NCBI GenBank assembly: GCA_030867875.1
Contig: JAOWCC010000019.1
Span: 77,094,861-77,158,860 of the forward strand
DNA: 64,000 bases
Reading direction: 5' to 3'
From: Actinernus sp. WN-2022
Taxonomy: Eukaryota > Cnidaria > Anthozoa > Actiniaria > Actinernidae
Of the stretch, positions 4,814 through 57,820 are shown in pieces (within the stretch, counting starts at the first letter, position 1; every line of letters starts with the position of its first letter). A program made the position numbers and the translations under genes. Below the pieces are notes generated by a model, which saw nothing but the letters and a program-made list of their open reading frames with translations, made no database searches and was not told where the DNA came from.

Positions 4814-5324
4814 GCTTTCTACCTTCTGGACATGCTCAATAATTGGCTGTTGGTCCTTGATACACCCTCACAGTTCCTTAGAGTTTGTTTCCTCGATTTT
4901 AGTAAGGCCTTTGACCGTATCAATGTCCCGAAGCTCATCACACTTGGAGTTAGAAGATGCTTAATTCTATGGATCTGCAACTTTCTTTGTGACCGCCGGT
5001 AATCTGTGAAACTTGGCAGCCGTCAACTCTTATTGGGGGACCGTCAGTGCAAGTGTACCTCAAGGCACCAAACTTGCACCAATTAATTCTTTTCTTGATT
5101 ATGGTCAACGATCTTTCATTAAAATCGCCGCACACGAGTCATTGGAAACATGTTGATGACATTACGAAATCGGAATCTTTAACAGCGAACGGTAATTCCA
5201 CTCTTCAATCTGACCTGGTCGAAATATCTCGTTGGGCGAAATGTAATGATATGAAACTTAATCCTAAGAAATGTAAAGAGATGTCCATTAGTTTCCTCCG
5301 TCAGCAACCTGACGGCACTTATAA

Positions 5325-24042: not shown

Positions 24043-25625
24043 CACAGGCTAACCATCCTCCCATTTTGTGTATTTGTCACTGATTTATTAGCAAATTGTG
24101 AAATAAAATACCTTTTGACTTGATTCTGCTGTTGTGTGTTGATTTAGCGCACGCTCGTAATACAGCTCGGGTTTCCTGTGGCTCAGGTTTGTTTACATAT
24201 AGCTCGGGCTTCCTGTGGCTCATCTCTCGCCAACTACATAAAAATACACAAGGCAGGCAACTAAATTCATCGCCGACAAGCGAGGCGCGCGAGAATTTTG
24301 CCGAAAAACGAAAACTTCCAGGTTCCTGCTCCCTCTCTAACATTCAAAATATCGAAGAACAGTAAATGAGCTACGTTTTTGGTGCTAATTCACGGCGATA
24401 TCGAGTGTTACACACTCGTAAAAGCTTCTTAGAAAGCGTCAAACTGGTCCAGATTTTCGGCGATTTTTTTTTCTCCCTATGATCGGGACAGATATGAGCC
24501 ATCATAAGGATTTATAACGGTCATCACATTCAAATTTTTTTAATCAATCTGTCGAATGATCTCCCGTCTAGAGTCTCCAGCGAAGAAATGGACAGCTGAC
24601 ATATTTCCCCTAATCTCCCTCGTATGGGCTGTTTTGCAACTTGACACACCACCCCGATGAAGTAGTTTTTTGGCAGCTTCCGATAAACGAACCGGAAGAA
24701 AAATATCTTGAAGACTTCGCGGGAGTTTGTTTACAAAAATATATATGTCGCACGACCGCTAAACTCTAGTACTATTATGATTTCAGACCAAATTTTACTC
24801 CACTCTACTAGTATTACCATCAGTAAATTCAGCACAAATACAGTTTATCACATCATAAAATTATCTTTAACTAGCAAATTACCGTGTTTGTAGTGAGCTT
24901 GCTCGTTCCAAGAGTGCCAGGATCTTTGAAATTTCTAGTCGAGAGTGTGAAGAAGAAGTTCCACTTTCTTCCGATTTGAAGTAGTCTGAAGCTGCCAAAA
25001 AACTACTTCATCGGGGTGGTGTGTCAAGTTGCAAAACAGCCCATACGAGGGAGATTAGGGGAAATATGTCAGCTGTCCATTTCTTCGCTGGAGACTCTAG
25101 ACGGGAGATCATTCGACAGATTGATTAAAAAAATTTGAATGTGATGACCGTTATAAATCCTTATGATGGCTCATATCTGTCCCGATCATAGGGAGAAAAA
25201 AAAATCGCCGAAAATCTGGACCAGTTTGACGCTTTCTAAGAAGCTTTTACGAGTGTGTAACACTCGATATCGCCGTGAATTAGCACCAAAAACGTAGCTC
25301 ATTTACTGTTCTTCGATATTTTGAATGTTAGAGAGGGAGCAGGAACCTGGAAGTTTTCGTTTTTCGGCAAAATTCTCGCGCGCCTCGCTTGTCGGCGATG
25401 AATTTAGTTGCCTGCCTTGTGTATTTTTATGTAGTTGGCGAGAGATGAGCCACAGGAAGCCCGAGCTATATGTAAACAAACCTGAGCCACAGGAAACCCG
25501 AGCTGTATTACGAGCGTGCGCTAAATCAACACACAACAGCAGAATCAAGTCAAAAGGTATTTTATTTCACAATTTGCTAATAAATCAGTGACAAATACAC
25601 AAAATGGGAGGATGGTTAGCCTGTG
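24043..25625. mobile_element. 1.58 kb foldback element with ~640-bp near-identical arms
   Basis: Sequence from 24043 to about 24680 is repeated as its reverse complement at about 24990-25625, with only a ~300-bp unique centre. The termini are CACAGGCTAACCATCC. CATTCAC flanks both ends (24036-24042 and 25626-25632). The arms carry the same 81- and 88-codon open frames (24120-24365 + mirrored at 25303-25548 -; 24077-24343 - mirrored at 25325-25591 +), which follows from the palindrome and is not evidence of genes. Confidence 0.9.
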
Positions 25626-39698: not shown

Positions 39699-40649
39699 AT
39701 GGCTACTACCACTTTAGAAGACAGTGTAGAGAGGACTAACAAGGTTACAAGGTTATGCCAGCTGCTGGTCGATGTTGGTGCTGACGCTCTACGAGGTGTC
39801 TTTGATCAATTGCAACCACCTTCCACTCTTGCTTCCTCCCTTAACAGTTACAAGCATTTGTTGGAAAATCTCCGACACAAACATGTCTTTTATTGGGACT
39901 TATTGTTTCCCACTGAACATGGTACCCTGCACTACCCAGATTCTTATTACTTTGACATTGCACTGCTGTCAGTGCTCTTGAAAACCATCTGTGGTTTGAA
40001 GCCACCAACTAGTAGCTGGGACAAACTGCCATCTGAACAAGATAACTCACTGGAGGCAAACCTGGCAAGGCTTATGTACTACAGAAATGAAGTTTACAGT
40101 TGCATAACTACTGGAGTTTACACAGCCAAGTTTGATTGCTATTGGCTTGAGATATCTTCTACATTGGAGAATCTTGGGATTGACAGAGTGGGCATTGCAG
40201 AATTGCTTGAGACTTCACCACTTGAAGTAGGAAAAAGTTGTTACGAGGGGCTTATCCACTGGGTATCCATGGACCAGCAGTTAAATGATGCCATTCCAGT
40301 CCTATTGGAAGAACAGAAAGACTCCAAACAAGAGATAAAAGTGTGGCCAAGAGAGGTTCTTTTGGATTATTACAAGATAATTCACATGCGAAGCAAAAGT
40401 CAACCTGAAATTATTGAGCAAAGATTAAAGCAGCTGAGCTATGAAGCCAGGCATTATCTGAGTTCAGTAAAATTCTCCAAAAAGTTCTTTATTGTCAAAT
40501 TTGACGTTTTCATGAAGGAAGCTCTTAGAAAGGAAGGTGATGGCAATGCAAAGACACTCAAGAAAATGCAAACTGGTTTTCAAAATCTAGAAAAGTTTGG
40601 AGTAAACCTTATGAAGTTTCCTTGGCAGCGTGAGTTCTATACGATTAAG
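39699..40649 (+). CDS. HEPN-PUB-NZF protein (SPATA2/tamozhennic-like), coding exon A: HEPN domain and first half of PUB
   Basis: Encodes residues 1-317 of a predicted 1083-aa protein. Residues ~15-190 resemble the DZIP3-type HEPN domain: TRLCQLLVDVGADALRGVFD, then a WDLLFP block, FDIALLSVLLKTICGL, the SW-KLP segment, LARLMYYRNEVYS and a W..IS...L.NLGI helix. The usual R-N-x-x-Y-x-H motif of HEPN ribonucleases reads R129-N-E-V-Y-S-C135, so the His is replaced by Cys and catalysis is doubtful. Residues ~217-317 match the N-terminal half of the SPATA2 PUB domain, ending in GVNLMKFPWQREFYTIK. The exon ends at AAG with GTAAGC as donor, phase 0. The ATG at 39699 is the first in frame. Exon B at 55520 supplies the rest of PUB. 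The joining and the HEPN call come from recognised family patterns, not from transcript data. Confidence 0.85.
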
Positions 40650-40832
40650 GTAAGCTAGTGTAGAGTCTTAATATTCTGTATTATGCACAATAACGCTACA
40701 GGCGCTATAGAGGACCGGACCGGAAGTAATAAAATGTCAGATCCCAAAGCCCCGGCTAAACTATCGACCATTGTTGGATACTCGATTCAACTACGTTGGA
40801 TGAAAATGTCGGGTGGTGGCAAAACAAAAGAA

Positions 40833-41137
40833 TAGAGCAGGTTTCAATTGCCTGTAGTAAAACCAAAATTAAAGCAATTACAACGAACCAATCACGAACT
40901 AAAATGAATACCGATTGGTTTCACTGGCATGAGAAAGCAACCAATCAGGAGGAAAAGTAAACGCAATCGGGGATTGATGGCGTGACGGACCAAAACCACG
41001 ATTGGTTTTACTCTGGAATTTGATTCGCTGACTGATTACAAAACATTTTCACAGCCAATAGAAAAGCTAAGTAAACGCAAAACCAAAGCAATCACCGCGG
41101 AAAACTTAATACGACACTCAATTGAAACCAGCTCTAG
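40833..41137. mobile_element. Foldback MITE
   Basis: TAGAGCAGGTTTCAATTG at the left pairs with CAATTGAAACCAGCTCTA at the right. AACCAATC/GATTGGTT motifs recur inside. No clear target duplication. Confidence 0.75.
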
Positions 41138-41163
41138 TTCTGTTCTATTTTACTATGTTCAGC

Positions 41164-41444
41164 CATAGTTAATAGAGTGGAATGGTTATGAAACCCAGCG
41201 ACCTTCTTTGTTATATGTCTGTCAGCTTTTCTCAACCACTACCCTGCACAAAACACAATAGAAATTCCATTGTGTTAATCAATCAGCCAATAGAAACGTG
41301 TGAGTTCAGTCGTTCAGGCGACGCTGATGAACTATGACCCTGCACAATCTTTTGTCTTGCCCCCTTCCAACATAAATCGCAGCGCCTTTGTTAGCCCCTT
41401 TGAAGTTTGCCGGGTTTCATAACCATTCCACTCTATAAACTATG
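41164..41444. mobile_element. 281-bp MITE with 7-bp target duplication
   Basis: CATAGTTAATAGAGTGGAAT opposes ATTCCACTCTATAAACTATG. GTTCAGC flanks both sides (41157-41163 and 41445-41451). Pairing continues through GGTTATGAAACCC. Confidence 0.85.
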
Positions 41445-41479
41445 GTTCAGCCGATTAGAAAACATTTCTATTTATAAGC

Positions 41480-42057
41480 AATGAGAACACAATGATGTGG
41501 AGGGTAGCCGTCCAGCACGCATTTATTAATATACATGTAGGAATGGTCAAGTTACAAGCTATCACTAGGGTGAACACCGTGTACGTACACGTGTATCAGT
41601 GATAACAGTAAGATTGGTCTGTAAAGTATCATATAATTTAGTATAATAATTCAGTAGTGCTTTAGTGGGAAGGCTGCCGGACACAAAAAAAACGGTGGGA
41701 AATTACCCTTGCTGCAAGAAAAAACCTGGAAACGTGTTCTCCAACCCAGTGCATATGTGGGAAACGGGTCTTGTTGCCCAGCTCAGTAATTCCACACTTC
41801 ACTTTGTTTCAGATTTCACGCTTTAATTCCCTTTGTTTCAGTTCTCTCAGGTCCTCTCGCTAGTTCACAACAACTTAGACTTGACTATAATAAAAGCTAC
41901 TAACCTAGTTACTTGATTCTATCTAACTAATAATATTATTAGTTTTGTTCGTCAATCAATCTGAGAGTCAATCTCTACTATTTTTAATACTTATCTCTCA
42001 CGTCACCCCTCACTTCCTCTCACTTGTCAACAACATTATTTAACAATTTCTAACACA
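41480..42057 (-). repeat. Putative 3' LTR of the BEL/Pao element
   Basis: On the minus strand a purine-rich tract (CCGGAGAAAAACAGGGGAG) directly precedes TGTGTTAGAAATTG, the expected polypurine tract and LTR start. The far end near 41480 is approximate. No second LTR is present because the 5' part of the element is missing. Confidence 0.5.
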
Positions 42058-42156
42058 CTCCCCTGTTTTTCTCCGGAGGAGACAAACACAGGATTTGGGA
42101 GTTCATTCGCAACGTTCAGCGTTTATATGATAAAAAACAAAGTTCAGTTCCAAAGT

Positions 42157-44500
42157 TCAGTGTCCCAGTTCATCTTGTGCAACATCTCTGATCCTTTCTC
42201 TTGCGGCGACCGCAGCATCTCGTTTGGGCCTGAATGTGGGCGCGTCGGGGTTGAGCGGAGTCTGGGTGTTGGGAGACGTCCTGTCACAGGACAATTCCAA
42301 TGGATAGAGGTGCTGAACCGCACGTTCTAAGAAACTCTTACCCGCTCGTAACTTGGCGGCCCGTACAATTCCGTCGCGTCCTACAATCAGGTTTTCTATG
42401 ATTCCAAGCTTCCATCTATTGCGATTGCGTTGATCATCCTTGATGATGACGACCTCCCCCTTGGCTAAAGGGGAGTCTTGTCCCTTGTGCTTGAGGTGAT
42501 GTCGTTCGCGTAAGGCTCGCAAGTACTCTTTTGACCATCTGCTCCACATAGCGTCCTTGCAGCTCATCAGATATCTAGCCCTCTTGCGCAGATCTTTATC
42601 CTCCAAGTAGTGTGGATCCCGCTCCGGGAGGAGATTGGAACCCAAGAACAGTAGTGAGTTTGGCGTCAGAGTCGGCAATTGTGCGTCGTCTTCCACGTAA
42701 CTCAAAGGGCGATTGTTGAGAGTGATTTCGACATCGAGGAGGACTTCGCACAACTCCGTCCAGGTCAGCAAGCCGTGACCGATGGTCTTGTGTAGTGCTG
42801 ATTTCACAAGGCCAATGAGGCGCTTGGGGCGCGGCTTAGGTTAAACTGCCACGTAATATCTAGATGGGCAACGAAATCGTTGAGCTTGTCGTCGTTACGC
42901 GTTACGCACGGTCTTTAACCACTTGGCGGCAGCCACAAAGGTCTTACCGTTATCAGAGTAGACCTTTATTGGTCGGCCTCGCCTCGCGATGAGTCGTTTC
43001 ATACTTCTTAGGAATTTTTGAGTCTCCAGTGTCTGCAACAACTCCATGTAGATACCTCTCGTCAGGCTGCAGGAATACAACACCACGTACGCTTTGCCCT
43101 CTGTTTTGGGCTTGGCGCGGTATTTTATCGGACCGGCAAAGTCCACGCCTATGACCTGGAACGGCATGTTGCCCTCTGTACGATCTGTGGGCAACAGCCC
43201 TGGGGGCGGACTGGCCACGGCAATCGCTTGTAATCTCCTGCATCCCCAGCAACGTTTCAACACTTGTTTCACTAGTTTCCTGAGGCGTGGTACCCACAGT
43301 TTTTCGCGCACTTTCGCCATCGTCAGACTCACTCCCCCGTGGAGGGTAGTCACGTGGGCTCGTTGCACGATTTTGGCGGTGAAAACAGCTGAGTCAGGTA
43401 GATAGATAGGGTATTGGCCTTGGATTCTGCCCCAACACTCCAACACACCCTCTGCGTTCTCCTGCACGTTTAGTTGTAGTTTATCCTCTCAAAAGCTTGG
43501 GTTGCGCATTCCCTCTTTCTGTGCTCGCTTGATCCAGAAGAACTTCTGTGCTGCAATCTTCTCTGTCGTTAGGGGGCCCCGCACTCTCTCTGCCTTTGGG
43601 GCTCTTGCATTGCGCAAGAATCTAGCTATCCAGGCGCACGTGCGCAGCACCCGCCAAAGGTCACACTTGCCCAGTAAATCGTCAGGTACATCAGGTTCGC
43701 TTGCCTCGGCAGCAAGCGCAACAACCTCACGAGTGGCCTTGGCCTCTGCATTGCTCTCTTTCGTCGCTTGTGTTGCGATATCTGGAGGCCAGCGTTCTGG
43801 TTCGCTGAGCTACTCCGGCCCGTGCCACCATAATTTCAAGTTTAGATAAACTTCGCCTCCTCTGCTTGCAAGGTCTGCCGAGTTTTCCAGTCGTTCTCAC
43901 GTACGTGACGCCAGATTATCTCAGGGTGATTCTGTATTTTCTGCACACAGTTGGCGACAAACTGCTTGTAGTTCCCTCCACCCTTTAACCAGTGGAGGGC
44001 AACTGTACTGTCCAGCCAACCGTGTAGACTGGACACCGGAAATCCGTCTATGGTGTCACGCACGTTGAGTAGCAGGTTCATGGCCATGTGTGCTGATATG
44101 AGTTCCAGGCGGGGAATTGACAGACCCTGTTTAGCGAGTCTGAACTTGGCTGCTACTAGTCTTTGAGTGACAACTGAGTCTTGAGTGACAACCGCATAGA
44201 CGGCGGCTCCCACCCCATGACCACTGGCATCACCAAAGGCGTGTAGCGGAATCGCTTCGATAGGTTCTCTGTAAGTCGCCAAACTTCAGGGAGCAGAGAT
44301 AAACTCGGGTAGGCCACTCTCCCACTTTCTCCGACGAGTAGAAATGGATCATGGTAACGGCGCATCCCACGCCAACTTCGTCTCGCATGCTTCTCTATAG
44401 ATAAGCTTGCCCCCCAGGGTTACGGTTACGGGTTACGGGTGACACCAGCCCTAGGGGGTCATAGATTTTGGCAAGATTAGCCAAAATTCCAAGAGTGTCG
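42157..44500 (-). pseudogene. BEL/Pao retrotransposon pol remnant, antisense in the intron
   Basis: On the minus strand, from 44500 leftward: the Pao block after reverse transcriptase (LAKIYDPLGLVSP, then GGKLIYREACETKLAWD); an RNase H-like segment (HAFGDASGHGVGAAVYAVV, RLELISAHMA, WLDSTVALHWL); an integrase zinc-binding region (HVTTLHGGVSLTMAKVREKL…CWGC); integrase core motifs (FQVIGVDFAGPI and KVYSDNGKTF); and a DUF5641-like C-terminus (LAKGEVVIIKDDQRNRNRWK). Stops and frameshifts occur near 43820, 43494 and 42895. A deletion around 42830 joins NLSRAP to RLIGLVK and removes the W-W-G-G…E segment with the third catalytic residue. The capsid, protease and most of the reverse transcriptase are missing, so the copy is dead. 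Confidence 0.85.
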
Positions 44501-44771
44501 CTTTTATTTAAATGTCTCAAAAATCACTAATCCATTTACAGAGAACTGTTTGTCATTTATCAAAGGTGGGACGAATAACAACGCCACATGTCACATATTG
44601 TGACAACCCCACCAGAAGCCGCGGGCACGTACAGTTGGCGATTCAATGGTTCATTCTCAATGTAAGAAACCCGAATTTTCCGCCAGTGTAATTTGTAAGA
44701 CTCCCCAAAGTTTCTATCTCGTTCTTAAAGAGACTATTCCTGGATCGATATTCCTCTTTGCCAAAGACGCT

Positions 44772-45010
44772 AAGGACAGCATAGGTATTCCAACCTCAAT
44801 GTTTATTCCTCTAGGGGAGCTAGGACACTAGGACAGCACAGGTAGTCCAACCTCAATGTTTATTCCTCTAGGACAGCACAGGTAGTCCAACCTCAACGTT
44901 TATTCCTCTAGGAAAGCACAGGTAGTCCAACCGCACTGTTTACTCCGCTCGGACAGCCAGGGGCCAAGGACAGCACAGGTTGTGCAACCTCAATGTTTAT
45001 TCCTTTAAGA
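44772..45010. repeat. 40-bp tandem repeat, about five degenerate copies
   Basis: The unit begins AGGACAGCACAGGTAGTCCA and continues ACCTCAATGTTTATTCCTCT. Starts at 44830, 44870 and 44910 are exactly 40 bp apart, with more diverged copies before and after. Confidence 0.85.
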
Positions 45011-45259
45011 CAGCTAGGACACTAGGACTGCAACACAACTGTTAAAAACAAAAAAAAGCATAAGTGCTGCTTACCGGCGGGGAAGACCGCGACTGAGTAC
45101 TCTGAATACAGTAGCCAAAAAACGCAACAAATTGGAAGCTTCTTGGCATTCCAACTAGAAGCGAAGAGGGTTTGGATGTTCAGTAGAGTTCACGAAACAA
45201 ATTGCAACTTTTCAAGTGATATTATCAACAGCATTACGAAAAAGTATATACAGTATCTA

Positions 45260-45855
45260 CGGCATAGAAACGAGACTGAAATTATATGAACCGACCGGAC
45301 TACGAAACGTTAGATAAAACTAACAAAACAATCTCATGAACTCAAACACGATAGCCTTGTGAGCAATCGACATACATATGAAGCTATAGAAGTTGTTATC
45401 GACTATGTAAGAGTCAAAACATCGAACTGCTATGAAACCGCTTAAGTCAGTTTATGCACTTTCGTGACAAGCGAACGTTTCTACTTTCGACACACGGTCG
45501 CTACACTGTACGAAATCTCCAAGAATAAATCCCTAATGTCAAAAATAACCGGGGGATCCGAAAAAGGATAGTCTTGTGATCAATAGACATTCGTATGAAG
45601 CTCTAAAAGTTATTATCCTTTGCATGAAAATTCCGAGAACAAACACTATGAAACCGATAGTCACTTTACGCACTTCTGTGACAAGCGAACTTATCTAGTT
45701 TCGACATATGCTCGCTAAAGTGTACGAAATCTTCGCGAATAAATCCCTAATGTCCAAACTAACCGGGAAAACTGAGAGTGGATCCTTGTGACCAATCGAC
45801 ATACATATGAAGCTCCAGAAGTAATTATTGAATACATGAGAACCATAGAGCAAAC
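45260..45855. repeat. ~215-bp tandem repeat, 2-3 diverged copies
   Basis: CCTTGTGAGCAATCGACATA (about 45355), TCTTGTGATCAATAGACATT (about 45571) and CCTTGTGACCAATCGACATA (about 45784), each followed by ATGAAGCTMTARAAGTTRTTAT-like sequence. GTGACAAGCGAACGT and TAAATCCCTAATGTC recur once per unit. Confidence 0.85.
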
Positions 45856-45861
45856 AATAAT

Positions 45862-45900
45862 AACAAGAGGCTGTACCAGCCTTTACTCGGGCCATATGGA
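45862..45900 (+). repeat. Hairpin-end motif of the AACAAGAG family
   Basis: AACAAGAGGCTGTACCAGCC then TTTACTCGGGCC. The stem GGCTG/CAGCC differs from other copies but keeps base pairing. Confidence 0.6.
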
Positions 45901-46347
45901 ATTTCAACAAGGAATAGTTGGTATTCTTTGCAGGTTTGATTAAAAAAGTATTTTAAACTTGCAATTGTTTTAGCCTTTGGGAGAATAATAAATTATTTTG
46001 AATTCTTTTTACAAGAGTTACGTATATAAATCCTTTTTAAGAAGAATTGTAATTCTGTCTCCAGAGAAGCCATATAATAAAAATATTATATTAGTTATGT
46101 AAAAATAATCCTATTTTAGAGTGCCTGGGGTGATAACTGCCATGGAAAACAGAAAGCAAATTGCAGCCATGTTTATAACAGTAGCTACATATGTTTGAGA
46201 CAATATTATATATGTAGCAACACAAGACCAGTTATAATAATATAGTGAACACGAATGGTTAATTCTGTCCTGCTCTGCTGAGACTTACAACTCTTTATCA
46301 AACAAGTTTGATTTCACATGGTTTCGCATGGTTTTCAGGGAAGAATA
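45901..46347. other. Unassigned AT-rich DNA
   Basis: May be the body of the element whose end is at 45862. No gene supported. Confidence 0.35.
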
Positions 46348-46739
46348 GGCGAATCCTTGCTGACGTCATTGTTTACATTTTTGCCTCATTATCATAAATT
46401 AAACTTCAAGCTACAAACAAACAGAGTACATCAGTTGAAAGAGACTTTTAAACTTAGTAATCACCGAAAATGTAAGATTGATATGTTAAATATTTACAGA
46501 GAAATTGACTTTTCAAAGGGCTGGGGGGCAAAAGTTGCTGACAGCCATAGATTCTTTGTACATTTTGCTATTTTTAAATACTTTTCCTCAAAATAAACTT
46601 ATTTTATCATTCTAAAATTTTCGGTGATTAATATCAAGTGTGTCAATCTCTTTCGATTTATGGACTCTGTTTGTTTATATGTACGTCGCTTGAAGTTTGA
46701 TGTATACTAATAAGGAAAAAACGTAAACGAGGATTCGCC
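46348..46739. mobile_element. 392-bp palindromic MITE, copy 2
   Basis: Same termini (GGCGAATCCTTG…GGATTCGCC), same TA flanks and same length as 30329-30720. The ORF spanning 46318-46596 is a by-product of the arm sequence. Confidence 0.85.
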
Positions 46740-47355
46740 TATACAAGAGGCCAAGTAAAACCTCAACAACAAGTCTTTAAAATAACACATGCAATGTTCC
46801 TTTGAACTTCCTTCCAGTAATTTAGCATTCAGTTTTGCACTGTATCAGTAGCTTTGCATATTTACTGGCAGCTACTACACCAGGGGTCAACCCCCAGGTA
46901 CCCTGGGGATTTGCACAAATACCCAATCAAACTCGTTGTATCATATCCCCTGGTATGGGGCACAGCAATTAGTAAAAATTCATACAAGGTTCCTGATCTA
47001 TGAACCAAAGTGAGCTTTTCCCCCTCACCGATGGGCAACAAACAATTAATTCTGACAGGTTCCCATGGATCCACCCCTGGGTGCCGAAGCTGTTAATACA
47101 TGCATTATTTACCCATCCATATGATTATATATGTAATCTACTAGATTTAGCCTGTATATTAATATATAAAATGTACATAGTGGCAACAAGGGAACTAGTA
47201 CTACTACTACTAACAGAGGAGAATGTCAATGTATTTAGCATCATGGTATTGCTAACTGGGGACAAACTCATTTACTCTATGTATACAACTATATCCACTA
47301 CACTTGAGGGTGGTCACTACCAGAGATTTGGTTGCATTCTCAGTGTCGGCCTACA
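46740..47355. other. Unassigned DNA
   Basis: Starts with ACAAGAGGCCAAG, a weak AACAAGAG-family end. The frame at 47000-47392 (+, 130 codons) is open but low in coding character and matches nothing that I recognise. Confidence 0.3.
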
Positions 47356-47359
47356 ATTT

Positions 47360-47535
47360 AACATTCTGATCCAAGAAGACATGAAGATCTAACCATTTGC
47401 AGATGTCAGAGCAAAGGCAGTACCAGTTCTCCCACTTATTTGAAGGTCTCACCAGGATTTGAACCCACTGCCTCCTGCACAACAGACTGACACTTAACCA
47501 CTGCGCTTACTGGAATGCAGTTTAAGCAAACTGGA
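47360..47535 (-). repeat. tRNA-derived SINE, - copy
   Basis: On the minus strand GCGCAGTGGTTAAGTGTC (A-box-like) and GTGGGTTCAAATCC (good B-box) are followed by GGTACTGCCTTTG and CTGCAAATGGTTAGATCTTC, the same body as 27755-27935. Confidence 0.8.
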
Positions 47536-47603
47536 GGCTTAACCATCTTTCTGTTATAGGCCCAAACTTAGTTAAGATAAAATTAATCCAATAATTGTAA
47601 TGA

Positions 47604-49785
47604 AACAAGAGCCCATCTGGGCTTTCACTCGGGCCACATGAGATTGAAGATGAAATTACACTTTCATTTGAAATCCTCTAGGGAAGAATTATTAGCTGAA
47701 TTTAGCAGTCTTTAGGAGTGGCTGGTAGCGCGGTGACATTCATTCTCTGCTCCCCTAGTATATATATATATGTAATTTAATATTTTTGTTTTTCTCGTGT
47801 ATGTAAATTAAAGAAGTTGACCTCTACTTTAATATTCATGTTCATATTACGCACGCTTATAGCAGAGCGCGGTAATTACGTCACAAGTCTAGACCCCCCG
47901 CCAAGACTCAGACAAACAAACCGCTTTTCTTGTATCAACTTACAAGAATTGACTAGCACTTCAGTTCGTCCTCTGTCTATTCTACCAGAAATGACTGCTT
48001 TCCTGGACCATATTTTGAAAGGGAACCTGATGATTATACTGTCGAACAGCTTAAACTTTGGCTGAAATACAGAGGATTGAAACAAAGCGACAAACGTTGA
48101 TCTTGTCAAGCGAGTTTTGCATCTTCGCTGGCCAACCAACGAGACATGCTTACTATATAGACTGTCAAGTCCTATTTAAACTGTATCCCAAACTCATCTT
48201 TTCCCATGCAATATCGTTGTAAGACTTCACCTAAACATTGAAAAGTTACAAAGGTCAGGTTTTCCTGTATTAAGGCAAAAACAAAAGAATGTAGCCGCAT
48301 GCCGAGTGCAATCATCTTCTTCAATAAAACTCATCTGAGACCAAAGCTGTTATGGCTGGAAGAGCATATACATTAAAACTATGAACTGATAGAATCCTAA
48401 AATTCGGCAATCTTGCTTATGTTGGTGTGCTCTTTCAAACCATTATGTTATTGTTTGCATTTATCGAGTTTTCAAATTTAATACCTGCAGCTCCGAAAGA
48501 AATTAACTTCATTTGTGCTCAGAAAATAAATCAAAGCATTGTAGATGTAGGCTTTGCTTCCAAAATTTATTTAGAATCCACTGATAAATTCAAGTAAACT
48601 TAATGGTTGAACAGTAGTTCCTTCTCATTGTTTACTGGTGGACACATAGTCAGGGTTTCAGTAATTTATAGCCACTTACGTTTTATTGCCAGACCTAGTC
48701 TCGTTGTTCTGTGCTTTTAAGGTCTCTTGTACAAACATTTATCCAATGCTGACATTTCTCACTGAATTTGCTGTAAAGGTTTTGGAACAGAAAAGCTCCT
48801 CCTGTGAGTGATCAAAAAGGCCGAGAAAAGATGAGAAACCTGATCTACTAGCGGTGTACTGATCGATGCTTCATTCTCCGAGACATATCTCTTTGAGCGC
48901 CGGATTCACTCCTACATCTCCCCCAGCAACAATGCTTGGTATAGTCACCATTACTGATATGACAAGGAATCTTACTGAAGCAGCTGAAGGCATTGATTCT
49001 TTTTTTTTATCGAAAAAAATACGAATTCGGTCCTAATTTAGTCTGCTGTTCTGCAGGTTCAGAGTACTAATAGATGAGTGTCTCAAATTTATGTTTATAT
49101 TTGTCCCATATTATAAGTTGTATCCTGTCCACCTATGATGGAGCTATCACTGTATTTCTCTACTGTTCTTTCTACTCTGCGGTTCTTTGATCGCGTCCAT
49201 ATCTGTATTCGTTGGACTAAAGATTATTAACTGAAATGCCCGTTTTGTTTATGTACTGTTTAAAAGCTTTTACCCTCCTTCCCAAAACTGCAGTCTGCTC
49301 ATTATATTACAGAACTATAAAGGGAACTGTTGGAAGCCTTTAATTTCTCGAACCAAAATCTCGGCCGTGAGAGGAGTCTTGTTTACCGTGAGAGTTGAAT
49401 AACTGCTTCGGTCATCATAAATTATTCTGTGCCGAGTGTTTATTACCTACGAAACGTACCCCCAACAAGAGCGCCAGTTGAAATATCCTGAGCCTGTTGG
49501 AAGGCTTTCGCACGAGTGAACTTAAATAAAACAGCTTACATTTGAGAGATGGGACTCCAAATTTGAGAGAAAATTCCTCGCGCCGTCGTCCACCATCTTG
49601 ATTTACTGTATTTAATTATGTAAATACATTAACCTGGCGATTGTTGCGTGACCAGCACAGTGCAATCTGATTGGTGTGAATTTGACCTTTAACACATGCG
49701 CAGAAATTTTGCTACATGAAACAAAAAAACAAAAAATAATAACGGCTTGCATTTTTAGACTCGGCGCTGCCACAGGCAGCCCGAG
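47604..49785. mobile_element. 2.18 kb transposon with hairpin ends and a SAP-domain remnant
   Basis: The left end is AACAAGAGCCCATCTGGGC. The right end is CTGCCACAGGCAGCCCGAG followed by TAA. It is related at both ends to 18143-18657, and from about 49440 it is the reverse complement of the left part of the TIR element at 5325. Inside, at about 48000-48150 (+), is a frameshifted SAP-like helix-extended-helix segment. It is likely a decayed, once-autonomous member. Confidence 0.6.
48000..48150 (+). pseudogene. SAP-like DNA-binding motif fragment with frameshift
   Basis: Encodes DDYTVEQLKLWLKYRGLKQS then DKR. In the +1 frame it continues VDLVKRVLHLRWPTNE, so a single-base change breaks it. The helix-turn-helix pattern L-K-x-W-L-K-x-R-G-L…K-x-x-L-V-K-R-V is that of SAP domains, which bind AT-rich DNA. 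Confidence 0.65.
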
Positions 49786-49984
49786 TAATTATAAATACAT
49801 ATAATAGATGATGTAACTTTTAAATATAGAATAATTATTAGTTCTCAAATAAGGTATAGACTGCATGAGTCCATTTCAGAAATAAACATGCGATTTCCAC
49901 TCGGTTTTTGGATTATTGGAGTCATCTGTCTTCACACCAAATAATTAATTACAGTTGTAGATCTTCCGGCCGATCCGTATATTT
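49786..49984. other. Short AT-rich spacer
   Basis: Lies between two transposons. No feature seen. Confidence 0.4.
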
Positions 49985-50001
49985 CCGGCACCAACAAAAC
50001 C

Positions 50002-50108
50002 TGGATCGGATCGGATCGGATCGGATCGGACCGGATCGGACCGGATCGGATCGGATCGGATCGGATCGGATCGGATCGATCCGGATCGGATCGGATCACG
50101 GATCGGAT
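50002..50108. repeat. (ATCGG)n simple repeat
   Basis: About twenty 5-bp units with occasional CGG→CCG interruptions, contiguous with the left TIR of the surrounding element. Confidence 0.95.
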
Positions 50109-50330
50109 CACATATATTATGATTTCTCACCAAAAAATCACAGGGCCGTTTAATTTGCTCGAGGGTTTACCTATCCTTCAAGTCAAGATTTAAAGTCGGG
50201 ATTTCGAGTCAGGCTTTAGGGTTTAAGTGTACTCGCATATACTGTCGTGGAGATTTATGTCCCATCACCTACAATAGATCACCGACCGACAAAAGAAGTG
50301 GTTCGATCGTGAAGATGCATAAACGAAACC

Positions 50331-50426
50331 TACCCTGGTGCCAGAGGTTCTAGGTTTTGGTTCTAGGTTTTGTCTAGGTTAGGTGAAGGCGCGAAAAAAA
50401 ACCTAGAACCTCTGGCAACCAGGGTA
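50331..50426. mobile_element. 96-bp MITE with 10-bp target duplication
   Basis: TACCCTGGTGCCAGAGGTTC at the left opposes GAACCTCTGGCAACCAGGGTA at the right. AAACGAAACC flanks both sides (50321-50330 and 50427-50436). A 9-11-bp duplication is typical of Mutator-like elements. Confidence 0.85.
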
Positions 50427-51179
50427 AAACGAAACCCGGCCATAAATCAATTAAAGTGTATCATGGACATGGCGAAACGGATCAGTGTACCAGCAGACAT
50501 TCGGATACATTTTAAGCTTCGATGATAATTTGACAGGAATTTTTACAATGTGAGTTACAGTTTAACTTTCTAAATGTTTATTTTTTCTCCACGTTAGGGG
50601 AATCGATCCAGGAGTGTTAACAGCGCGACTGGTCTAGACAGCAAAAGCGCGGAGGTTGTATTCAAACGAGTACTCGAGTTTAGCAGGGCTAGGCAACGGA
50701 CAAACAAAAAGGGAACCAGTTCAGGGAAGACAATATTGTGTATTATCCATGATTGTCTCTTTTTTGTGTGGAACAATTAAACTGTTTGGAGTCCTTTCAT
50801 AGCCTTCGAAAAATGTTTAGGTCGCATTTTTGTGTCAATGAAATCGACACGCCGGACTAAGCTTCATAGAATTGAACTACTGACTCACACCACGAAAGGT
50901 TTCACTTGAAATTCGGGGGAAATGCCGGAGGAAATGACTGTCAAAGGGCAAAATATAAAGATAAACATACGTATTTTATACTTAGCTGTCAAAGCAAAAA
51001 AATAAAACGTGATATATAAACGAAACGGGTCGTAATTGTTGTGGCGGGAAAAATATAATTCAACCGTAAATGTGATCCGTACCGATCCGTGATCCGATCC
51101 GATCCAGGTTTTGTTGGTGCTGGTATATTTCCTATTTTACCGAAAGAACTGATAAATTGGCCCATTTTCTAGTCTATTA

Positions 51180-52375
51180 GAAGCCATTTAAACTTCCTAG
51201 AATTGAACTACTAAACAAGGCCCTTCAAGAACTGTACTTATGGTGTCTTAATAACAAATTAACACCACACCCAGGCAAAAGCGAGGCGATGCTGTTCAGC
51301 AGGGGGACCTTTGTTGGTTCAGCCCCTCCAGTGTTCTTGGGGAACTCAACCCTTAAGTGGGTTACGGAAACGCGTCTGCTAGGAATGACTGTGGACCATA
51401 AACTGAGTTGGGTACCACATTCATTAGATCTTAAGAAGAGTTTTGCCACAAAATTAAACTTATTAAAACGTTCTAGGTTTTTATCTAAGAAAATTCTACA
51501 GGATTTCTATTTTAAGGTCATTTTGCCTTCTGTAAAATATGGCATAATCTTGTGGGGTGCGTGTTGTAATAAGGAAGGTTCTTAACTCTATAGAAAGGAT
51601 GCATTGTAGAGCGGCTAGGATTATATTTAATTTACCAAAGGACATGCCTTCTACTGATGTCTTAGAGCACGCCCAATGGTCAACTCTTTTCTTTCAATAT
51701 AAATTAGTTATCTTTAAACTGTTTTATAAGGCTTACGATGAACGTCTACCGAATATTTTAATTAAGGCGATTGTATTGAAACGGAAAAACGGTTATGCCT
51801 TAAGGGCATGCGATTCGCTCCCGACCTCTCGATTTATAACTAGATACATGAAGGATTCATTAACATATCGAGTTGCGGTGCTATGGAACACTATCTGTAG
51901 AGACTATGACGTTAAAAGTACTGGTCTTAAAGAAACAATATCCCGTCTTAGCTGCTCGAAATCATTTGGGAATTTTAGTTTTGATATCACTTCAGCTACT
52001 ACTACGAACTTTAGAGTTGAAGGATTTATATATTACTAACTTTAGAGATCAAATATAAAAGTTTTATTACTTATTATTAACTATATAGATTGTAAATTAT
52101 ACACAAAGAATTGATTAATCTGAGCTTTGAGCAGGCGTTGGGCTTTTCATGGGGTGGGCGCCGTTACGGTGTTCGTCGCGTGGGGAGTCCGGCGTTGGCC
52201 CTAAAGCATTATTGATATTGATATTGATATTATAAACAGTATATAGATGTATATACATACGTCTCAATTTGATAGTGTTTTTATTTAATTTTATATACAT
52301 TTTTTTTACACGACCCCACAAGCTTTCAGCTTTTACATTAATCGTGTTTAAATAAAGGTTATCTATCTATCTATC
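51180..52375 (+). pseudogene. 3' half of a CR1/L2-like LINE ORF2 with tail
   Basis: Frames at 51189-51585 and 51557-52039 encode CLNNKLTPHPGKSEAMLFSR, WVTETRLLGMTVDHKLSW, VILPSVKYGIILWG, then IERMHCRAARIIFNLP, FFQYKLVIFKLFYKAYDERL and the YRVAVLWNTI block. These are conserved LINE ORF2 C-terminal motifs. A single frameshift near 51570 breaks an otherwise well-kept frame, so the copy is relatively young. The 3' UTR ends in AAATAAAGGTTATCTATC plus ATCTATCTATC, a microsatellite tail. Confidence 0.85.
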
Positions 52376-52379
52376 TTGA

Positions 52380-53018
52380 ATATGCCTTAAGTGCTTTAGG
52401 AGGTGTCTACAGTCCAAACTACATCAGTATTGTTTATGCTATTGGCTCTTTTTTCTGTGAAAACTCAGAGAAGCCACCATCCAGCAAATGGGATATAGAG
52501 AAAACAAAAGATTTTTCAATCGCAAATTTGAGAACTTTCCCCACACATGATATTCTTCGAAATTAAACCATATTAGTTTGATCAAAAATAAATTCAAACC
52601 ACAAAAAAATATAGAATGAAAATGCATTATTTTGATGGGTTTCTATTGAATTTATAGTAATCGACCAATGAAATTACGAGAAAGAATAATAGAAAATTAA
52701 CAACTTTTACCATTCCTTTTTTACAGCAGAGAACTGTGTTATTAAAGAAATAAAAAATAGAAATAAAAAAATTGTGCTATTTGGAGAATTATTTCATCAA
52801 TCATGGCAGCTGTACATTTGACCACAATTCCTTGCGAACCTAACACGGTCAAAATAATACGTAGAAATCATCTATTCTCTTCAGCAACAGTGTATTGGCA
52901 ACAGCATTTGTACTGGCTTGTTTTTAAGATTTAAAACCTCTACCGCGATTTTATAACGGATTTAAAGGTTTTCGCGCGCAAAGGATTGTGGGTAAAAGTA
53001 CAAGCCGCCATCTTTTTC
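52380..53018. other. Unassigned AT-rich DNA
   Basis: No coding frame or repeat structure supported. Confidence 0.4.
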
Positions 53019-53716
53019 GGTATATACTTCATGGTAGTGTTTCGTTCCATATACCTTATTATAGGAAATTAACAATGCACTTTATTAACGCGATTTTACA
53101 AAATTCGCGTTAATTTAATGTATCTTAATTAATGTCGATGTAAATTTAATGCACGCTATTTTACAACATTGTTATTTTAAAGCACCTTTATTTCATTTCA
53201 AAACCTTATTAGTTCATGACTCCTCTATTGGCTCTTCAGAGTCACTATTGCGGTTTGGTTTCCGTCAATCAAACGAGTGAGCAGCTCTTGGTGATTTCAC
53301 CGTGAGGCTTTGAAATATCTTTTGAATTGATAGGGTCTAGTTAGGCTTCAAACCCAAATTTTCGGCTTTAAAAAAAACTTAGAAACATCCGTGCACTTGT
53401 CTTGGAAGGTTTTATTGACGGAAGCCAAAACGCAGTTTGGCGTTCAGAAATGTAAAGTGCGAGTTTGCAGAATTATGAAAATCGCAGTAAATAAAGCAAG
53501 ATGCTTATCGGAAAATTCGCGTTAATTTAATGCATGTAAACCTAACTTTTGAAAAATTCGCGTTAATTTAGTGTAACGTAAATTTTCTTCGCGTTGTCAA
53601 CGTGCATTGTTAATTTCCTATAATAAGGTAGTCTCCCTACATAATACTGTAAAACAGTAGAGAAAATCATTATGCAGGGAGACTATGGAATGAAAGACTA
53701 CCATGAAGTATATACC
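53019..53716. mobile_element. Palindromic MITE split by a second MITE
   Basis: GGTATATACTTCATGGTAGT at 53019 opposes ACTACCATGAAGTATATACC ending at 53716. The sequence between is interrupted by the element at 53054-53628. Without it the outer element is about 121 bp, and the GGGAGACTATGG arm pairs with the CCATA…GTCTCCC halves on either side of the insertion. Confidence 0.8.
53054..53628. mobile_element. 575-bp MITE nested in an arm of another MITE, TA target duplication
   Basis: CCTTATTATAGGAAATTAAC at the left opposes GTTAATTTCCTATAATAAGG at the right, with TA on each side. Inside, AAATTCGCGTTAATTTAATG repeats several times. Tc1/mariner-type by its TA duplication. Confidence 0.85.
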
Positions 53717-53919
53717 AGTATAAGGCACAACAGCGTGAACAGCTCGTGTCAACTGTCCAATATGTAGCTGTTCTGCATGGCAAAATATTGGACTGCCACG
53801 TGTCCCTAATTACGAACAATGGTGGATCGCGCAAAGCTGGATCGTTGATTCTCAAACTCATGAATAATTAATGAGAATATTACAAAGAAAATCACAAGCG
53901 TGAAGGAGTTTGGATATGT

Positions 53920-54130
53920 GATGAAACACTTGCATAAATTATCCAAACTTTCTTCTTCAATGGTAAATTCGTTGGAGAAGCCATATACAACACTGTCAGC
54001 CGTGTTTCATCACATATCCAAACACCTCGAACTGAGTTTAAAAAAACTCCGCTTCGCGTCATTTTTCAAGTTCAGTTCTCAGTGTTTGGATATGTTATAC
54101 AACACGGCTGACAGTGTTGTATATATTACA
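53920..54130. repeat. Compound inverted-repeat segment
   Basis: GGATATGTGATGAAACAC recurs as GTGTTTCATCACATATCC, and ATACAACACTGTCAGCCGTG as CACGGCTGACAGTGTTGTAT. Probably a rearranged foldback element. Confidence 0.7.
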
Positions 54131-54584
54131 TCCAACATTGTTCGATAGTTTGGTAGGGGGTTTACTTACACAATGTAGTCGAGAAGTAGTCTGGAACGTA
54201 TTCCATGTGAATGAGAACACAACTTTGAAAGAGGCATCGTTATCATGGCAACAGCACGCCTCGGTCTCTCCAGCATTGTCAATGCATGTGAACACATCCT
54301 TGGTATACTCGTGGTCATGACCGTGAGAATGGGGTCGTCATATAACTGCTAGTGTGCAGTTTGTGTGAATGTGCACACGATGGGTTTGTTGTTTCCGAAA
54401 GACTAAATTTTTGGTTGCGATGCGACTACTGAAACCGGGGCCACCTAGACAACAAGAACTAAACTTATCGCAAAACGAAAATAAGGCTTTCCAAAATGCA
54501 AATGCTTGCATATTCACGCGATTTTCTTCAACCAAGACTTCAGAACGAGTCCACAAAATTTACCAGATCGAAGCTCGAGCAAGT

Positions 54585-55430
54585 TGAAATGCTATTGTCT
54601 TGTACTCTATACTGATTGGCTCAAATAACCATAAGTTGAAATGCTTTGTCTTGTACTCAATACTGATTGGCTCAAATAACCATATGTTGAAATGCTATTG
54701 TCTTGTACTCGATACTGATTGTGATTGGCTCAAATAACCATAAGTTGAAATGCTTTGTCTCGTACTCAATACTGATTGGCTCAAATAACCATAAGTTGAA
54801 ATGCTTTGTCTTGTACTCAATACTGATTGGCTCAAATAACCATAAGTTGAAATGCTATTGTCTTGTACTCGATACTGATTGTGATTGGCTCAAATAACCA
54901 TAAGTTGAAATGCTTTGTCTTGTACTAGATACTGATTGGCTCAAGTAACCATAAGTTGAAATACTTTGTCTTGTACTTGATACTGATTGGCTCAAATAAC
55001 CATAAGTTGAAATGCTTTGTCTTGTACTTGATACTGATTGGCTCAAATAACCATAAGTTGAAATGCTATTGTCTTGTACTCGATACTGATTGGCTCAAAT
55101 AACCATAAGTTGAAATGCTTTGTCTTGTACTTGATACTGATTGGCTCAAGTAACCATAAGTTGAAATGCTTTGTCTTGTACTTGATACTGATTGGCTCAA
55201 ATAACCATAAGTTGAAATGCTTTGTCTTGTACTTGATACTGATTGGCTCAAATAACCATATAAGTTGAAATGCTTTGTCTTGTACTTGATACTGATTGGC
55301 TCAAATAACCATAAGTTGAAATGCTTTGTCTTGTACTTGATACTGATTGGCTCAAGTAACCATAAGTTGAAATGCTATTGTCTTGTACCTGATACTGATT
55401 GGCTCAAATAACCATAAGTTGAAATCCTTT
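54585..55430. repeat. 51-bp minisatellite just upstream of exon B
   Basis: About 16 copies of a 51-bp unit containing ACTGATTGGCTCAAATAACC and ATAAGTTGAAATGCTTTGTC. A few units are lengthened by a GATTGT insertion or one or two bases. Because 51 is a multiple of three, frames stay open on both strands (for example repeated LIGSNNHKLKCF); these are not genes. The array ends about 90 bp before the splice acceptor at 55519. Each unit has an inverted CCAAT sequence (GATTGG). Confidence 0.95.
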
Positions 55431-55519
55431 GTTTTTGTTCTGCAATGTGAGTGGTTCTCATTGTCTAAGTGGCCCCCTGCTGTAGGTTTTTGCTTATATT
55501 CTTCCCATTTTCTCCACAG

Positions 55520-57820
55520 CTCTACACTTGTTTTTACAAAGACGGCATAGAATCGAAGGTTTCATTTGGTCCAGCAGTACTGGAATTGTACGGATACAAA
55601 TCCAAGTCTAACGAACTTGCTGTGTTACAAGAGCCTCTTAATATTGAAGATATAGCCGCGACGTCTTTTGAGTTATTCCTCTCTGCAATTGAACTCGAAG
55701 TGATGTTGGATATTCTTCACAAAGTGTCTGACCAAACGGATTCATTCTCGTTAGAGGAGATCTTTAAAGCGAGAGTAAAAACTATTGGGGATCTCAACGA
55801 AGCTGTGTCGTATTTCAACGAGAAAAAAAACCCGAGTATGATGCATAAGCGGTTTAAGTTAGATAAGGATCAAGATGGTTCAAGAGATTCGCCAAAACAT
55901 GCAAAAGAAAGTACGGATGACATACTGAGAAAGTCCAAGGAGTCATATGCAATGCTAGGTCATGAAAAGACGACGAGAGATACCAAATACCCACCTGGAA
56001 TCGCAACATCCATGCAGACAGGTGCGTCAATTCACTTGGATAACGCTCCGATGATACCCTACGATGCCACACACCAAGTACCTGTAAAGTATGTGCCGCC
56101 AGCAGTTGGTGGTAAAAGTAGAATGGCATCATCGACCTACATGCACGGAGAGTCGACCTTGGCAGCCTTCGATTGTTTAACTGATGCTGAACTATATGGG
56201 CAAGTAAACGGTCATGCGCCCAATGCGCTGGTCACGCAAAAGCATGCCCAGTCGAATACTTCACATGAAGGCATACGGGCAGTGCATTTACAAGGCCAAC
56301 TTACGGGCGCTGTGGCACATCTAAACGATTACCCTTCTGCATTGCATCATCTCGGAGCCGATCCAAGGAACCAAAAACGGGTGTACAGCGAAAATTCAGA
56401 TAGTTATTATGAAAACATCTGGGAAGGCCATACTGATCCCATTTACGAAAATGTGTCAACCCGCCCTGGACGTACTACTGTTCAGCCACCTTGTCCCCCA
56501 GCGGGTATCCCACCCCCATCATACAGTCATGCCCTCACTCGTGATTCACCCAAACCCCAAGAGCTGCACGAGCAAGACGGGTTCGTCGTGATAGACAAAG
56601 GTACAAATGCAATAGAAAGACGGCATGAAACCGTGAGGGGTGACGAAACGAGACTCGTCCCTCGTATGGGCGAGATCAGCCTCGGTAGCAATGTTAACCA
56701 TCCGCCTATCACAGACTCTAGAAGAACGCATAGAGATTCATCAGTCATTACGAGGAGCAGCAGCCCTGGTGTGCATAGAAGGGGATTGAGAGATGTCAGT
56801 AAAGTCACTGATGCATATCCTGGAGTAGCTGTTACAGCTAAGGCATTCGATCATCCGTCGGGATCTCCTAAAGTCTACCACGTCTGTTCGTGCCAAGCTG
56901 ATGAAATACGTGCCGCCTCATTCCCCGCGGTCTTCAGTAGAGTGAAGGGATCTAATATTGCTTCGTTTTTTCCAGTTGGATCTACCAGTGTGGGATCACT
57001 ACACACAGATGAGACCGAGCTGGAAAAGGAATCCACTGAGGTAGCTGTACCAAGGTCAGTCACTGAATCTGGACGCGTGACACGAAGCAAGACGCGAGAT
57101 GTTTCGCTCGGAAAGGAGACGGACATAAGTACTTTTAAAGATGTAACGATAGAACAGCAGAGGACAGAAGTCCCTTCATCTTCAGTAAGAGTTAATAGAT
57201 CCAGAGAAGGTGCTTCCACTTCACGGCACAAGGACGGTTGTGACGTCTGCGGAAGTTATGGCACACATGAATGTAAACTCTGTTCAAAAGTTTATTGTGA
57301 TAATCATGTTAAGATCTTTGACGGCCTGCTTTGTAAAAATTCTACTGAGCACCACATATTTGTACAACGTCGTCCCGAGTCAACAACCATCGATCCTGAA
57401 GTCGTCAATCCAAACAAAAAGACCATCTGTGACTTCTGCGGGCTGCCTGGGGCCTTCATGTGCAAAGGTTGTTTCAAGCTTTCCTGTAAGGAGTGCCTAA
57501 AGATTTTCCAGACCGACCTCTGCGGGGTCAACAAGGGAAATCACGATTTCGTTGACTTAGCAGGGAAAAAGAGTGACAAGACAAAGTCCACAGATGGGAG
57601 CGAGACCCCATGGTCGTGCGAGCGTTGCACATTTAAAAACCTGCCCGAGCATAACATTTGTGTAGTTTGTGCAACATCTCGCGGTGTAAAGGAAATAAGT
57701 ATCCCTCCTTCTGGGAGCCGTAAGTGTGGTGTTTGTACGTACGGCAACGAAGAAGGCGCCAGGATATGCAAGATGTGCCACAATTATATCGACTTGGAGA
57801 GACCCGAGTCTTACATTTAA
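55520..57820 (+). CDS. HEPN-PUB-NZF protein, terminal coding exon B: second half of PUB, disordered linker, B-box-like, SPATA2-type and two NZF-type zinc fingers
   Basis: Encodes residues 318-1083 and a TAA stop. Residues ~318-400 complete the PUB domain (LNIEDIAATSFELFLSAIEL), which in SPATA2 binds CYLD. Residues ~420-880 are low-complexity and polar, with YYENI (Y614) and IYENV (Y626), both of pYxN type as used by Grb2-like SH2 domains, and PPSY (649-652), a PPxY motif for WW domains. Then follow a B-box-like finger (C891, C894, C902, C905, C910, H913, C922, H928/H929), the SPATA2 C-terminal finger (C954, C957, C965, C968, C973, C976, C985, H992), an NZF (W1015, C1017, C1020, T1021-F1022, C1031, C1034) and a CTY finger (C1053, C1056, C1067, C1070). 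Drosophila Tamozhennic also carries a RanBP2-type finger. In SPATA2 the family role is bridging CYLD to HOIP; here it is inferred. The in-frame sequence 55469-55519 upstream is intronic. Confidence 0.88.
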   Translation, partial: LYTCFYKDGIESKVSFGPAVLELYGYKSKSNELAVLQEPLNIEDIAATSFELFLSAIELEVMLDILHKVSDQTDSFSLEEIFKARVKTIGDLNEAVSYFNEKKNPSMMHKRFKLDKDQDGSRDSPKHAKESTDDILRKSKESYAMLGHEKTTRDTKYPPGIATSMQTGASIHLDNAPMIPYDATHQVPVKYVPPAVGGKSRMASSTYMHGESTLAAFDCLTDAELYGQVNGHAPNALVTQKHAQSNTSHEGIRAVHLQGQLTGAVAHLNDYPSALHHLGADPRNQKRVYSENSDSYYENIWEGHTDPIYENVSTRPGRTTVQPPCPPAGIPPPSYSHALTRDSPKPQELHEQDGFVVIDKGTNAIERRHETVRGDETRLVPRMGEISLGSNVNHPPITDSRRTHRDSSVITRSSSPGVHRRGLRDVSKVTDAYPGVAVTAKAFDHPSGSPKVYHVCSCQADEIRAASFPAVFSRVKGSNIASFFPVGSTSVGSLHTDETELEKESTEVAVPRSVTESGRVTRSKTRDVSLGKETDISTFKDVTIEQQRTEVPSSSVRVNRSREGASTSRHKDGCDVCGSYGTHECKLCSKVYCDNHVKIFDGLLCKNSTEHHIFVQRRPESTTIDPEVVNPNKKTICDFCGLPGAFMCKGCFKLSCKECLKIFQTDLCGVNKGNHDFVDLAGKKSDKTKSTDGSETPWSCERCTFKNLPEHNICVVCATSRGVKEISIPPSGSRKCGVCTYGNEEGARICKMCHNYIDLERPESYI

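Follow-up and report, generated by a model that had tools for sequence, protein, structure and literature searches.

The closest described relatives of the gene presented here come from two groups of proteins. Drosophila Tamozhennic combines a PUB domain with RanBP2/NZF-type zinc fingers, as does the present gene, and to our knowledge lacks a HEPN domain; SPATA2, the vertebrate PUB protein, is about 520 amino acids (aa) long. The second group consists of the animal DZIP3/hRUL138-type HEPN proteins, above all the HEPN-NACHT receptors, a large class in anthozoans which is usually read as RNases and for which we know of no established downstream partner. HEPN RNases are known to form dimers that have composite sites. 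Here we describe a predicted two-exon gene at positions 39699 to 57820 (+) of a window of 64,000 nucleotides from the anthozoan Actinernus sp. WN-2022 (GCA_030867875.1, contig JAOWCC010000019.1, positions 77,094,861 to 77,158,860). The predicted product of 1083 aa unites a HEPN domain, a SPATA2-type PUB domain and four zinc-finger cysteine sets, an architecture that the initial annotation of this DNA had proposed and that the profile scores and cysteine sets given below uphold. Judged from the sequence, the fusion of HEPN and PUB in one gene is very likely and the HEPN is very probably a pseudo-RNase. We tentatively prefer a reading in which this HEPN would serve as a docking (or RNA-binding) module on SPATA2 and bring ubiquitin editing of the type of CYLD and the linear ubiquitin chain assembly complex (LUBAC) to HEPN-bearing receptors.

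The predicted protein shares with human SPATA2 (5ljm) the PUB domain with its CYLD-contact Tyr-Thr pair, a long linker and, putatively, a finger of SPATA2 type near the C-terminus; no other PUB gene of SPATA2 type was found in the genome. It differs in length (1083 aa against 520), in the additional N-terminal HEPN, second finger copy and two C-terminal NZF-like fingers, and in the absence of a clear Asp-Leu-Tyr PUB-interacting motif (PIM). With the HEPN-NACHT proteins and other DZIP3/hRUL138-type members it shares the HEPN family, the N-terminal position of the domain and a similar start, whereas NACHT and repeats are missing, the catalytic His is lost and a PUB is fused. The PUB of HOIP/RNF31 has the same fold and the same pocket Asn (Asn303 by the 5ljm alignment), but in bit score the present PUB lies far from it.

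Exon A (39699..40649, +) encodes 317 aa, comprising the start Met, the HEPN module and the first half of the PUB, and ends at the donor AAG/GTAAGC. Exon B (55520..57820, +) follows the acceptor CTCCACAG/CTC and encodes a further 766 aa and the stop, with the second PUB half, the long linker and the four zinc-finger cysteine sets. The first residues of exon A resemble the N-terminus of the HEPN homologue P0006. The two exons are separated by a phase-0 intron of 14.87 kb (40650..55519, +); all 1083 codons are open and both splice sites have consensus form. One open exon encodes both the HEPN and the first PUB half, so their fusion is independent of the intron and its splicing.

The Pfam profile SPATA2_PUB-like (cut-off 27) matches exon A alone with 31.6 bits (residues 248-317, profile 32-98) and exon B alone with 18.1 bits, under the cut-off (0.002, profile 120-175). 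Once joined, the two form one stretch from residue 249 to 392 (profile 33-175) with 61.5 bits and 1.1e-16. By Pfam and by the alignment with 5ljm the first half covers residues 249-317 (40443..40649, +) and the second residues 318-392 (55520..55744, +). Human SPATA2 (5ljm) aligns to residues 261-394 with 48.9 bits (6e-12) and without a gap at the junction; HOIP is far weaker against the joined domain, with 18.9 bits (0.0075). The initial annotation had stated that a phase-0 junction completes the domain and that the PUB is of SPATA2 type, and both statements agree with these alignments. Assignment as a HOIP PUB was rejected on the two scores and because a separate HOIP PUB lies at C888:105955027.

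With the numbering of 5ljm deduced from residues 94, 98, 114 and 115 of the SPATA2 paper, the equivalent positions here are Lys299, Asn303, Tyr319 and Thr320. The CYLD-contact pair Tyr114-Thr115 is kept as Tyr319-Thr320, the second and third residues past the exon junction and hence part of the second PUB half. Mutation of Tyr114 and Thr115 in the SPATA2 PUB is reported to lower CYLD binding (PMC5031558), and residues 1-116 of SPATA2 are reported to suffice for it (PMC5009064). The kept pair and the presence of a HOIP PUB gene in the genome make a link to CYLD/LUBAC plausible.

The second half of the PUB was also sought among other acceptors. Downstream of exon A, 120 AG acceptors open phase-0 frames of at least 60 aa, and these were scored with an approximate SPATA2 query sequence. 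Scores above 19 bits were obtained only at 55520 (34.3 bits) and at four AGs nested in exon B, the best value elsewhere being 18.9. A search of the 1.39-Gb assembly with the SPATA2 PUB profile, made in six frames so that domains split by introns may be missed, gave three matches at E <=1, namely exon A with 33.2 bits (E 2.6e-5), exon B with 20.3 bits (E 0.245) and C888:105955027 with 22.5 bits (E 0.05), the last identified as the HOIP PUB (RNF31 6e-23, Pfam PUB 43.7 bits). The six-frame search delivered no second SPATA2 PUB at E <=1. Since the three matches are the two exons of this gene and the HOIP PUB, the gene looks like the single SPATA2 of the species, and we consider it a probable sole orthologue. 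The HOIP/RNF31-type PUB exon lies 28.8 Mb away on the same contig, with a B-box-like finger frame nearby that stays under the cut-off.

A chance meeting of two PUB halves was ruled out by the gapless 5ljm junction, the acceptor scan and the genome-wide profile search. It is also highly improbable that the gene model is an artefact in which exons A and B belong to separate transcripts or a HEPN sits on a broken SPATA2. Such an error would be favoured by an intron of 14.9 kb with retrotransposon pieces, by the weak PUB match of exon B taken alone and by a gene model known from DNA only. It is countered by the presence of the HEPN and the first PUB half in one exon, by the 1083 open codons and consensus splice sites, and by the fact that exon B and a HOIP PUB are the only genomic candidates at E <=1 for the missing half. 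The retrotransposon pieces are of BEL/Pao type (Peptidase_A17, integrase, DUF5641) and lie on the minus strand at 42157-44285; self-matches further revealed a tandem array with units of about 51 bp at 54581-55435, just 5' of the exon B acceptor.

The HEPN module with its trailing helix occupies residues 1-204 (39699..40310, +). Pfam HEPN_DZIP3 (PF18738) matches residues 41-170 (39819-40208) with 109.2 bits and 1.9e-31 against a curated cut-off of 27, which makes the domain a member of this family by sequence, in accordance with the earlier assignment of about residues 15-190 to a DZIP3-type HEPN. The helix after the HEPN (171-204) shows weak similarity to HEPN homologues. An AlphaFold2 model of residues 1-204 was of good quality and reached a pLDDT of 82.5 and a pTM of 0.81. 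Foldseek found no match at E <=0.001 for the exon A model or the HEPN model, nor among viral models. The weaker structure matches of the HEPN model were Csm6 6tug (5.9), a designed protein (5.4), Csm6 5yjc (4.9) and Roquin (4.8), all in the common range, and no HEPN structure stood out.

The RNase motif is degenerate and reads RNEVYSC (40083..40103, +), with Cys (TGC) in the column of the catalytic His. For comparison 20 external homologues were available, 7 from the exon A protein search and 13 from the whole-protein search; four of them carry organism names, all anthozoan (Dendronephthya twice, Paramuricea, Montipora), and 17 of the 20 bear an ATPase label in addition to the HEPN, the other 3 being labelled as HEPN alone. 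R129, N130, Y133 and H135 are kept in every one of the 20, whereas here the first three are kept and H135 is replaced by Cys. A residue is shared by 19 or all 20 of the homologues in 52 columns. The present HEPN agrees with them in 44 and deviates in eight, through H39Q, loss of a Q, G74H, G106S, K126M, H135C, K170L and L199I. The two His and the two Lys of this conserved set (H39, K126, H135, K170) are all among the deviations, a grouping that was picked after seeing the data.

The motif Rx4-6H is mostly conserved in the DZIP3-type family according to Table 1 of PMC3710099. The same review states that RNase L, RloC and PrrC cannot do without the His, and describes HEPNs without the motif as likely nucleic-acid binders that do not cleave. 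In the present HEPN the Arg of this motif is kept and the His is lost, so that RNA cleavage is unlikely. The initial annotation had linked the fusion to RNA sensing or processing; cleavage or processing by the HEPN does not fit with the Cys in a column that is His in all 20 homologues, nor with the loss of four near-invariant His and Lys residues. It is very unlikely that the HEPN is still an RNase which uses another residue and couples RNA cleavage to ubiquitin signalling. Some HEPN families, such as AbiV and AF0298, do use an alternative His (PMC3710099), and the motif here still has its Arg and Asn; against this, a second near-invariant His is lost as well, residue 39 being Gln here and His in 19 of the 20 homologues. 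A single sequencing error as the source of the His loss was excluded, as TGC is two base changes away from either His codon.

Without catalysis the HEPN might instead act as an RNA sensor, binding RNA and bringing CYLD/HOIP to RNA-containing complexes with no role for receptors. The proposal of motif-less HEPNs as nucleic-acid binders (PMC3710099) and the retention of R129, N130 and Y133 are in keeping with such an adaptor; the loss of H39, K126, H135 and K170, basic in the external homologues, disfavours RNA contacts, and we regard the idea as rather doubtful.

In the own genome 40 places match HEPN_DZIP3, the present gene included. All 39 others were compared, some of them being identical copies, and the His column is occupied in 37 of them. 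It holds His in 30; in 4 (L020, L021, L022, L037) the His stands one residue earlier (Rx4H), and 3 have none, namely L034 and L035, which are alike, and the very divergent L038. Five long HEPN frames (983-1166 aa), sampled by length from the 39 other matches, all have a P-loop ATPase above cut-off after the HEPN, with NPHP3_N in five, NACHT in one and NB-ARC in one. Expansions of HEPN-NACHT proteins in anthozoans are reported to range from 17 to 83 proteins per species (PMC8260672). This genome thus contains HEPN-ATPase genes as well as a gene with a HOIP PUB, which are pieces of a possible route from receptors to LUBAC.

These loci also bear on a dominant-negative role, in which the dead HEPN would pair with catalytic HEPN-NACHT proteins and silence their RNase, the SPATA2 part adding ubiquitin-dependent control. 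The present HEPN is of the same domain type, with 44 of 52 conserved columns kept and the His lost, and the Arg-x4-5-His motif remains in 34 of the 37 own-genome loci with residues there. The bulk of the protein resembles SPATA2, however, and this speaks for use as an adaptor; the pairing is hypothetical, and we consider this role improbable.

Between the PUB and the fingers the linker was inspected for a PIM. The PIM of SPATA2 is reported as Asp-Leu-Tyr-Thr at 336-339, and the SPATA2 PUB itself is reported to bind no PIM peptides (PMC5031558). The linker holds one [DE][LM]Y instance, a candidate Glu-Leu-Tyr-Gly at residues 541-544 (56189..56200, +), and no Asp-Leu-Tyr.

Zinc finger 1 (residues 891-932, 57239..57364, +) and zinc finger 2 (residues 954-995, 57428..57553, +) resemble the finger at the C-terminus of human SPATA2, with 35% and 40% identity, each over 43 columns, to an approximate human sequence. 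Two NZF-like fingers follow. NZF1 (residues 1015-1037, 57611..57679, +) reads WSCERCTFKN...CVVC and NZF2 (residues 1051-1072, 57719..57784, +) RKCGVCTYGN...CKMC; each has its cysteine set in the NZF pattern C-x2-C-T-[FY]-x-N...C-x2-C, with the Thr-Phe or Thr-Tyr pair by which NZFs contact ubiquitin. The Pfam RanBP finger gives 15.3 bits for NZF1 (cut-off 27) and no match for NZF2. NZF1 also has weak matches to YAF2 (0.036), TAB3 (0.058), NPL4 (0.18) and ZRANB1/TRABID (0.2-0.31) in the PDB. Tandem NZFs are reported to bind ubiquitinated proteins (PMC12805371).

On the preferred reading, the protein would be a working SPATA2. Its PUB would engage a deubiquitinase of CYLD type and activate it, the PIM candidate of the linker would perhaps bind HOIP, and the two SPATA2-like fingers and two NZFs would hold ubiquitin chains. 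The dead HEPN would pair with its counterparts in the HEPN-NACHT/STAND receptors that this genome encodes, or bind RNA, and CYLD/LUBAC-type ubiquitin editing would thereby be recruited to activated receptors, as is done by death-fold adaptors elsewhere. As HEPN RNases dimerise, a dead HEPN with a kept core would be a natural partner of receptor HEPNs, and its docking to them is a possibility that we hold with some reserve.

Several observations weigh against this picture. The pairing of the HEPN with receptors is conjectural, and RNA binding without cleavage, its main rival, is about as likely. The other lost basic columns vary in the own genome as well, position 126 being Lys in 26 of 37 rows, position 170 Lys in 31 of 35 and position 39 His in 30 of 34. 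In the HEPN tree the gene sits on a long branch of unsure position (0.94), which may reflect drift to another role. The match of exon B alone is weak in the genome-wide search, and only the third of the four fingers is detected by Pfam, under the cut-off. The PIM candidate is weak, because a [DE][LM]Y occurs by chance in the shuffled linker with a frequency of 0.11 and because Glu-Leu-Tyr-Gly recurs inside the PUB at 339-342.

Searches for further HEPN+PUB proteins gave negative results. Neither the 13 matches of the whole-protein search (8000 candidates scored) nor the 7 of the exon A protein search carry a PUB label, and no relative was found in prokaryote genome contigs. With residues 215-450, the region of the PUB, as protein query, no match at E <=10 was obtained among 917 candidates; the length window of this search, 0.55-1.75 of 1083 aa, leaves out proteins of about 520 aa, so that the lack of HEPN+PUB proteins there is weak evidence. 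In Table 1 of PMC3710099 the listed HEPN partners are TPR, Zn-ribbon, RING, Ankyrin, CARD, NACHT, DEATH and LRR, and PUB is not among them. The open-licence PMC literature, judged non-exhaustively by titles and the beginnings of abstracts, yielded no HEPN+PUB or HEPN+SPATA2 protein and no report on a cnidarian or invertebrate SPATA2 of this kind.

A tandem array of the NZF-pair segment of the gene lies on the minus strand at 5-3663 of the window and continues to the left as far as G000:C888:77085082, with units of 300/345 bp. The 11 units in the window have 91.7-93.7% DNA identity to the NZF pair of the gene, and with the adjacent 9.9 kb the array spans about 13.4 kb and holds 41 NZF1 and 39 NZF2 motifs. 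Its reading frame is interrupted by two in-frame stops and shifts once, whereas 23 distal units read through; it closes with a C-terminus like that of the gene itself (ESYI, stop). The rate of nonsynonymous change (dN) is about equal to the synonymous rate (dS) in the 11 window units, and no HEPN or PUB match was found beside the array within the window. For these reasons we read the array as a duplicate of part of the gene that has been amplified and shows no evident constraint. A DNA search of the own genome with 57200-57820 gave one match, itself, and missed this 92-94% identical array; it is uninformative on uniqueness because known near-identical copies went undetected.

Elsewhere in the window, the reading frames at 24080-24362 and 25306-25588, separated by about 0.9 kb and oppositely oriented, encode identical translations and so form an inverted repeat (compared as protein). 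A weak reverse-transcriptase match (RVT_1, 20.1 bits, under the cut-off) lies at 4993-5487 (+).

If the preferred reading is true, the gene would provide a concrete route from the HEPN-NACHT receptors to linear/K63 ubiquitin signalling, and it would make a case for the HEPN as a signalling adaptor besides its role as a nuclease. By analogy with the CARD and death domains of vertebrates, it is conceivable, if rather unlikely at present, that the HEPN acts as a homotypic adaptor in animal innate immunity which links HEPN-NACHT receptors to CYLD/LUBAC.

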